Shown here: positions 7,812 to 9,082 of the stretch, piece after piece
Position numbering within the stretch: position 1 is the first letter of the stretch
How the letters are laid out: every line of letters begins with the position of its first letter
Assembly (NCBI RefSeq): GCF_000219625.1
Contig: NC_018217.1
Location: forward strand, 3,472,001-3,536,000
Reading direction: 5' to 3'
DNA: 64,000 bases
Origin: Zymoseptoria tritici IPO323
Taxonomy: Eukaryota > Ascomycota > Dothideomycetes > Mycosphaerellales > Mycosphaerellaceae
Translations under genes and position numbers: made by a program
The notes under the pieces: model-generated
Databases searched by the model: none
What the model saw: the letters and a program-made list of their open reading frames with translations, nothing else
Told to the model about the DNA's origin: nothing

Positions 7812-8826
7812 GTTGACGGGAGAGGATGTGGGTGGGCTGAGATGGTGGAAGGTTTGGCTGTCGTCTGGGATGGACGGTCGAAGAGAAGGGGCGACTTACC
7901 AGCACATATATATGATGTGCCTCAAACTCGTGTGTCGTTTGAGGAGAACCTGGCGCACACGCATGCCAACCCGACCCCCTCGAGTCAGAACGGGACAGAA
8001 TTAGCAGCGACAAAACGGCGACCTTTCGCCAAACGTACCTTGTATTCGCTGGCCAATTTGGACGATCCTCGGCGGGTGCAAGCTCGTTTGCAGATGTCGC
8101 CTTTGTCCGCCATACAGATGTGGATGTGAGACCAAGCCTTTGGCGACGCAAGAAGAGGAAGGCGCAAGCTTATACCACCTTCCCTATTCTCCCTAGAGGT
8201 GAGGCGGTCTATACTCTGCCAAGTCGTTCTGCAACGAATAAGCTTCGCCTGAAACGAGGTGGGGGCAGCGGTCAATGTCCAAGATAGGAGACCATTTGAG
8301 TTCTATGCGAGGATCGATCGGCGTGGTCTCGCATAGCTCGAGTTCGCTTCATGCGTGATATAGTGGTTGCGGAGTTGCGAGCAGAGTCATGTGGACGTTG
8401 GCGAGATTTCTTTGCTCGCATGGCGTGCGGCGTCTTGAGGATCGGCATCTTGTGCCTCGGTCACAGCTACCGATGTGGGCGGTGGAGCAACGCGAGAGTT
8501 GTGGTAGCAAAACAGTGGAATATCGAGTACGAGGTAAAGAGTGTAGTGGAAGAGTCCATTGCCCTAGGTGGAGTAGAAAGACTCCAAGCTTTGTGCTCGT
8601 GCAGATATGGTTCTCCTCCTTAATCAAAATTTGAAGCCCTTTCCCTATCAACCTCCTCGCCAAGCCCGCTGAATCCTCCCCGGCCCAAATTCTGCCCCCA
8701 ATCCCGTCCGCACGATAGCAAAACTTCTTAACCACTTCCTATACGCAATTCTTAACCCTTAAGAACAAAAAGTATATCAAAAGATGCGTCTCGTCGAGCT
8801 TACGACGACGAGAGGGCAAAAGAACG
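7812..8826. other. Intergenic, cutinase upstream region
   Basis: About 1 kb between the cutinase start and the tRNA gene. Reading frames here lack ATG starts or conserved motifs. A TATATATA string at about 7907-7914 lies about 100 bp upstream of the cutinase start and could serve as its TATA element. Confidence 0.4.
8818..8821 (-). terminator. Possible Pol III terminator of the tRNA gene
   Basis: On the minus strand a TTTT run follows the tRNA 3' end by about 5 nt, as expected for RNA polymerase III termination. Four T residues is a minimal signal. Confidence 0.45.
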
Positions 8827-9030
8827 GGGCCGAACCGTGGATCTTTTTCAGACGTTAGTAAGAGGTAATGAGGGTGTTGTAGAAGGGCACAACTCACTGA
8901 ACACGGGGCCTCCTGCATGTTGTCGCTGCCGAAGCATCAACCCAAAGCAGGAATCATACCACTAGACCATTCTGTTCTTCATTAGACTTTGATGGGTGCA
9001 AGTCAGGGGTTGGTTGGGAACGTACCGGCC
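8827..9030 (-). tRNA. tP(UGG): tRNA-Pro (anticodon UGG) with three introns, two of them spliceosomal in appearance
   Basis: Minus-strand exons 9026-9030 (GGCCG), 8941-8971, 8898-8917 and 8828-8842, with discriminator C at 8827, spell a perfect 72-nt proline tRNA. The acceptor stem GGCCGAA/TTCGGCC pairs 7 of 7. The D-arm is GTCTAGTGGTATGAT, the anticodon stem CCTGC/GCAGG with loop TTTGGGT, the variable loop AGGCC (as I recall it in yeast tRNA-Pro), and the T-stem CCGTG/CACGG with loop TTCAATC. Intron B (8918-8940, 23 nt) sits at the canonical 37/38 position. Intron A (8972-9025, 54 nt, GTACGT...CTAAT...CAG) splits the acceptor stem after nt 5. Intron C (8843-8897, 55 nt, GTGAGT...TTACTAAC...AAG) splits the T-loop after nt 57. 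A and C have the length, splice sites and branch sites of the protein-gene introns in this window. The A box is intact; the B box is interrupted in the DNA. Confidence 0.85.
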
Positions 9031-9073: not shown

Positions 9074-9082
9074 TATATATAT
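9074..9082 (-). promoter_or_regulatory. TATA-like element upstream of the tRNA-Pro gene
   Basis: TATATATA-type run about 44-52 bp upstream of tRNA nucleotide 1 on the minus strand. Since the internal B box is split by an intron, an upstream element could matter for transcription; this role is an inference. Confidence 0.35.

Follow-up and report, generated by a model that had tools for sequence, protein, structure and literature searches.

Putative mRNA-type introns in a tRNA-Pro(UGG) gene and other nuclear tRNA genes of Zymoseptoria tritici

Canonical introns of nuclear tRNA genes are located at position 37/38 and are removed by the tRNA endonuclease and a ligase, not by the spliceosome. In archaea and in the red alga Cyanidioschyzon merolae, a tRNA gene can contain several introns in non-canonical places, with bulge-helix-bulge motifs, and these ectopic introns are removed by an enzyme of the tRNA endonuclease type. 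Among fungi, the U3 snoRNA contains spliceosomal introns with GTRWGT donors, RCTRAC branch sites, YAG acceptors and, rarely, GC-AG ends, and, according to the same 2017 paper, no small structured RNA other than U3 and U6 is known to contain introns frequently (PMC5832005). Spliceosomal introns are also present in the rDNA of lichen fungi, and yeast removed a 57-bp one from an rRNA transcribed by RNA polymerase I (Pol I) (PMC8527467). In Z. tritici itself, introner-like elements have been described as a mobile-like route of spliceosomal intron gain (PMC4457414).

Here we analyze a tRNA-Pro(UGG) gene of Z. tritici located on the minus strand (9030-8827) of the window, that is, the whole 64,000-nucleotide stretch of DNA under study, and consisting of four exons (5, 31, 20 and 16 nt) and three introns (Table 1). 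The species assignment is supported by a protein encoded in the window, the DNA polymerase alpha subunit B, which is 100% identical to a Z. tritici (Dothideomycetes) sequence across 95% of the query ORF. Removal of 8972-9025, 8918-8940 and 8843-8897 leaves a 72-nt RNA that ARAGORN identifies as tRNA-Pro(tgg), and the boundaries, exon pieces and branch motifs of the original prediction are exact to the base. When evaluated with our own score of pairs and conserved bases, the spliced form is fully paired in the acceptor stem (7/7), the anticodon stem (5/5) and the T stem (5/5), as had been predicted, and obtains 15/15 points for conserved bases; the predicted RNA forms a cloverleaf and carries the anticodon UGG. 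The D stem, with two Watson-Crick pairs and a single G-U pair, is weaker (score 2.6 of 4), as is that of tRNA-Pro(AGG). No tRNA was detected in the unspliced window by ARAGORN, or by Rfam at gathering scores.

Table 1. Features of the tRNA-Pro(UGG) gene in the window, followed by the reconstructed tRNA genes of the genome with the tRNA positions of their mRNA-type introns
Feature or gene	Window position	Strand	Details
Whole tRNA-Pro(UGG) gene	8827..9030	-	sequence; ARAGORN on spliced form
Exon 1	9026..9030	-	tRNA positions 1-5 (GGCCG)
mRNA-type intron 1	8972..9025	-	at 5/6; 54 nt; GTACGT...CAG
Intron 1 branch motif	8981..8985	-	CTAAT; A 10 nt from intron end
Exon 2	8941..8971	-	positions 6-37; anticodon TGG and A box region
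Canonical tRNA intron	8918..8940	-	at 37/38; 23 nt
Exon 3	8898..8917	-	positions 38-57
mRNA-type intron 3	8843..8897	-	at 57/58; 55 nt; GTGAGT...AAG; B box split by intron
Intron 3 branch motif	8854..8860	-	TACTAAC; A 12 nt from intron end
Exon 4	8827..8842	-	positions 58-73
T-run, Pol III terminator-like	8818..8821	-	TTTT; 5 nt past 3' end
TATA-like element	9074..9082	-	~45-52 nt upstream
Pro-UGG, two genes			5/6, 57/58
Pro-AGG			5/6
Ala-CGC			26/27, 45/46; acceptor with G3-U70
Val-UAC, Val-AAC (two genes)			9/10; 14/15
Asp-GUC, three genes			30/31; second at 59/60 in two genes
Ile-AAU			11/12
Gln-CUG			19/20
Gln-UUG (L086)			19/20 (GC-AG), 27/28; 9-nt exon between
Tyr-GUA, two genes			15/16; second at 59/60 in one gene
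Glu-CUC, three genes			D-loop intron; one at 48/49, 50/51 or 51/52
Phe-GAA, two genes			53/54

The 23-nt intron is a canonical tRNA intron, whereas the other two carry spliceosomal signals: the GT-AG ends, the lengths of 54 and 55 nt and the CTAAT and TACTAAC motifs had all been read correctly. With these ends, a branch motif near the 3' end and a functional-RNA sequence restored on removal, both appear to be introns of the U2 type. As in the lichen rDNA, GT-AG introns would thus occur outside genes transcribed by RNA polymerase II (Pol II), the host there being a Pol I rRNA and here a tRNA. An assignment of the extra introns to the canonical endonuclease type was rejected because of their positions, which are not 37/38. 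At 51-58 nt, the Pro-UGG introns are too short to contain the ribozyme core of a group I or group II intron, and the window has no Rfam match at gathering scores.

A chance origin of this structure was addressed by scanning the two strands of the window in 600-nt tiles, each of which was allowed a maximum of two GT-AG deletions, 45-69 nt long and containing a branch motif. Among the resulting 2605 assemblies, only the Pro-UGG gene was recovered (two calls, from overlapping tiles), and no tRNA was called when the same rule was applied to 10 dinucleotide-shuffled versions of the window. The boundaries were evaluated with 814 deletions placed anywhere in the Pro-UGG precursor, with lengths within 8 nt of those claimed and GT-AG ends not assumed. 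For intron 1, the top score was reached by 2 of the 814 deletions (a single product, with a one-base slip), and for intron 3, by 2 of the 814 as well (two products), the GT-AG deletion being included in each case; boundaries other than GT-AG, which the original prediction counted against itself, are not favoured for this gene.

A search of the whole genome with the DNA of the gene, introns included, yielded one further match, on contig C8 (L002). The two copies are identical in 72/72 exon bases; degenerate exon pieces, another outcome that had been counted against the prediction, were looked for in this second copy in the same genome, and its pieces are intact. The splice signals of the C8 copy are GTTAGT...ACTAAC...TAG and GTGAGT...GCTAAC...AAG. 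Intron 1 is identical at 32/56 positions (0.50 in shuffled sequence), the canonical intron at 19/23, and intron 3 at 45/58 (0.78); the 5' flanks match at the shuffled level and the 3' flanks at 0.88. Therefore, the part that runs from exon 2 into the 3' flank is younger or has undergone conversion, and intron 1 and the 5' flank are old. The third Pro-UGG intron is the exception among mRNA-type introns of paralogues, whose identities are otherwise 0.49-0.66, compared with 0.47-0.51 for shuffled ones. The mature RNAs of the three Asp genes are identical in every pair (72/72), with first introns at 0.56-0.65 against 0.48-0.49 shuffled, and those of two Glu genes (a and b) are identical as well (72/72), with both introns at 0.58; for the third Glu gene, the match is 66/72. 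Introner-like elements are near-identical copies in many genes, whereas the Pro-UGG gene with its introns has two matches in the genome, itself and the C8 paralogue, with the diverged intron 1 described above, and identification of the introns as such elements was rejected. Just 3' of the T-run of the Pro-UGG gene, a hairpin is predicted (8785-8818, minus strand), followed by a second T-run; its stem is kept and its loop altered between the two copies, which have modest z-scores for folding (-1.94 and -0.44).

The single oddity of the original prediction is one of many in the Z. tritici genome. Reconstruction across 39,686,251 bases in 21 contigs yielded at least 20 tRNA genes for nine amino acids, with at least 30 mRNA-type introns in the acceptor, D, anticodon, variable and T regions (Table 1); Pro-CGG contains the canonical intron only. 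Candidate places were collected with D-arm and B-box patterns and with gap-free exon patterns, and the genes were then reconstructed. The census is a lower bound because flanks were read for 30 of the 47 places matched in the Pro D-arm search, and 100 of 116 and 100 of 594 places were listed in two further pattern searches. The loci that did not yield a reconstruction (L047-L049, L060, L066-L068, L072-L074, L077-L079, L081, L083-L085, L091, L092, L094, L098, L099, L101, L102, L104 and L108) surely include some that are not tRNA genes; 12 others (L037, L057, L063, L064, L071, L075, L076, L080, L082, L087, L088 and L100), some of them doubtful, were called by ARAGORN with no mRNA-type intron. 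Neither group enters the counts given here. Exact patterns had 0 matches in the IMG/VR and GTDB genomes, collections that contain almost no fungi and hence are silent on relatives.

Several observations were made along with the census. In the Glu-CUC genes L090, L093 and L097, the second intron is at 50/51, 51/52 and 48/49, respectively, which suggests either sliding or separate insertions. The Rfam tRNA model had 58 matches in the whole genome, none at the Pro-UGG gene, and, of the best 30, which were read, 28 (L003-L005, L007-L012 and L014-L032) represent one tRNA-derived, SINE-like repeat (GGCTAGTTGGTCTAGTGG... or its C-to-T variants) that has a loop giving no proper anticodon; the variants resemble the products of repeat-induced mutation. 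A cluster of tRNA-like sequences (GGGGATGTGGTCTAATGGTAAGATTC...) with inserts occupies contig C11 at ~1525300-1549500 (L047-L049), and in L101, a His-like tRNA gene, the 3' part is duplicated in tandem, terminator included.

The 30 introns are uniform. Twenty-nine have GT-AG ends and one has GC-AG ends; 28 are 50-58 nt long, the other two being 83 and 120 nt; all 30 contain a YTRAY branch motif with its A 10-13 nt from the end; and the acceptors are CAG (18), TAG (10) and AAG (2). The uniformity of the ends is partly by construction because GT or GC and AG were required by the builder, and a branch motif was required by the enumerator for some genes; exon restoration, tight length and the branch distance of 10-13 nt were not demanded in that form. 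The signals agree with those of the spliceosomal introns of fungal U3 snoRNA (PMC5832005). Fungal U6 snRNA, a Pol III transcript, and U3 snoRNA are similar hosts in being small structured RNAs with GT-AG introns and CTRAY branch motifs, but the Z. tritici hosts are tRNAs of many kinds, with up to two such introns per gene in addition to the canonical one, and at many positions. The original prediction also likened the Pro-UGG introns to those of protein genes in the same window, and this likeness was not confirmed: candidate sets of protein-gene introns exceeded the reversed-sequence control (26 vs 25, 9 vs 5 and 17 vs 8) by too little to make a clean set.

The same features bear on whether the extra introns might be cut by the tRNA splicing endonuclease, or by another protein enzyme, of relaxed specificity. 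That enzyme handles the canonical introns of the same genes, and ectopic tRNA introns of such a kind exist elsewhere, the archaeal and C. merolae ones being multiple and ectopic as those described here are. However, the 4-bp centre of a bulge-helix-bulge was found at the junction in 0/22 Z. tritici introns tested (1/14 for canonical introns), and cleavage by such an enzyme leaves the GT/GC-AG ends, the branch motifs and the near-constant length unexplained, so that we regard this mechanism as highly improbable.

Individual reconstructions differ in quality. When introns were moved by 5-20 nt, 6-13 locus strands still exceeded the unspliced ARAGORN score, compared with 16 for unshifted introns, and a score of 108 was reached by 0-7 shifted versus 13 unshifted. 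This control showed weak discrimination, and ARAGORN scoring was therefore dropped as the sole criterion in favour of the stricter score of pairs and conserved bases. With deletion tests on 20 introns, a non-GT-AG deletion scored higher, by 0.4-1.0, in 7/20, mostly D-loop introns; thus, even under the stricter score, several D-loop introns keep ambiguous ends. A freer deletion test was applied to eight single-intron loci, of which the Ile locus did not receive a proper score: GT-AG tied for best in three (Pro-AGG, Asp and Tyr), whereas the number of deletions that beat it was 1 for Val-AAC(a), 2 for Gln-CUG, 19 for Val-UAC and 15 for Val-AAC(b), which makes the last two the weakest reconstructions.

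For Asp and Tyr, paralogues provide a natural view of the site before or without an intron. The Asp gene on C1 reads GGGGTTCGATTCCCCG, where the genes on C5 and C12 read GGGGTTCGAT-intron-TCCCCG (site 59/60), with identical flanking bases; the Tyr gene on C11 reads GGTTCGATCCCGCG, where the gene on C6 reads GGTTCGAT-intron-CCCGCG (59/60). In both families, the natural empty site is equal to the predicted spliced product.

All reconstructed Asp (three), Tyr (two) and Phe (two) genes contain at least one mRNA-type intron, and each of these amino acids is served by a single nuclear isoacceptor class. We searched the whole genome with gap-free exon patterns, allowing up to 3 mismatches, and detected no intron-free Asp, Tyr or Phe gene. 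The Asp D arm occurs in four places, three of which are the genes, each with an intron at 30/31, and L108, the fourth, has no 3' half; the Asp T arm occurs in two places, once in the C1 gene and once as part of an unrelated arm. The Tyr anticodon arm matches four places, namely, the two Tyr genes, both interrupted, and the two Phe genes, and a further T arm that resembles Tyr (L077, at C6:231382) is not accompanied by a 5' half recognisable as that of Tyr. The Phe anticodon arm is found in two places, with the T arm interrupted in both, and an uninterrupted Phe T arm had 0 matches genome-wide at up to 3 mismatches. Because all these genes are interrupted, translation should depend on intron removal: judging from the assembled sequence, Asp, Tyr and Phe codons should be undecodable otherwise, unless further copies are absent from the assembly or more divergent than the patterns allow.

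These results also weigh on the suspicion that the interrupted genes are relics or chance look-alikes, with the working tRNAs made from other genes. The less clear reconstructions of Val-AAC(b) and Val-UAC would agree with it, as would the existence of other tRNA-like fragments (L108, L104 and L077), but the copies share identical exons despite their diverged introns, the scan of the window singled out the Pro-UGG gene with nothing in the shuffles, and the Asp, Tyr and Phe searches returned no gene free of these introns. We find this explanation hardly credible.

A T-run of at least four is present within 30 nt downstream in 20/20 interrupted genes (background 5.6%), and TTTT occurs inside 1/30 mRNA-type introns. 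A TATA-like element is located up to 80 nt upstream in 13/20 (background 3.4%), versus 2/7 ordinary tRNA genes, and CCAATCA is located 10-33 nt 5' of the gene in 10/20 (0.7% expected per 80-nt stretch), versus 0/7, the seven ordinary genes being a small, hand-picked comparison set. As a promoter element upstream of the gene, CCAATCA may compensate for the displaced or split internal boxes; the B box is split in 7/20 interrupted genes, including Pro-UGG. The split B boxes and the excess of TATA-like and CCAATCA elements could be taken to mean that Pol II makes the precursors, which are capped and later trimmed, with the introns still being spliceosomal; in that case, there would be no need to explain how a Pol III transcript is spliced. 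Such an origin seems unlikely to us, given that the universal downstream T-run and the near absence of TTTT from the introns are as expected of Pol III, that the comparison involves so few ordinary genes, and that upstream TATA boxes serve Pol III tRNA genes, too, in some fungi.

We consider it very probable, on the evidence of sequence, that the Pro-UGG locus is a working nuclear tRNA gene, one of a large set with short U2-type introns beside the canonical one, and that its Pol III precursor is processed by the spliceosome first and by the endonuclease at 37/38 last. Under this scheme, Pol III would produce a precursor ending at the T-run, and the nuclear spliceosome would recognise the GT(GC)-AG and CTRAY signals and remove the mRNA-type introns. 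With the acceptor stem interrupted at 5/6 and the T loop at 57/58, the acceptor stem and T arm would fold, and become usable by RNase P, only after splicing, and RNase P cleavage and 3' trimming would follow; the tRNA endonuclease and ligase would remove the 37/38 intron last. The general view that transcripts of Pol III make poor substrates for splicing counts against spliceosomal removal. The original claim that this tRNA would need the spliceosome, or another unknown activity, to mature gains support from the second Pro-UGG copy with both introns, and is strengthened by the Pro-AGG intron, also at 5/6, by 17 further tRNA genes with such introns, by paralogues lacking one of them, and by the interruption of all reconstructed Asp, Tyr and Phe genes.

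As introns, these resemble ordinary spliceosomal ones; what appears to be new, among mRNA-type introns of structured non-coding RNA genes, is their tRNA hosts. We found no report of a nuclear tRNA with spliceosomal introns in the open-access PMC literature, outside of which lie preprints and most subscription papers. Introner-like elements (PMC4457414) are a possible source of the tRNA introns. Where one paralogue has an intron and another lacks it at the same site, the two represent a before-and-after pair for the entry of introns into non-coding genes. Given that tRNA finders miss interrupted genes, catalogues of fungal tRNAs may have gaps.

In the textbook division, mRNA splicing and tRNA splicing are separated by genes, polymerases and enzymes; in Z. 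tritici, both would meet on one precursor. This opens to test the access of Pol III transcripts to the spliceosome, the order of splicing before RNase P, and the function of a split B box in Pol III transcription. It is likely that tRNA processing in this lineage cannot proceed without the spliceosome: introns would have invaded tRNA genes genome-wide, the Asp, Tyr, Phe and most Pro tRNAs would require two unrelated splicing systems acting in turn on one small transcript, and Pol III would transcribe genes with split B boxes. If so, the basic decoding capacity of the fungus would hang on the spliceosome.
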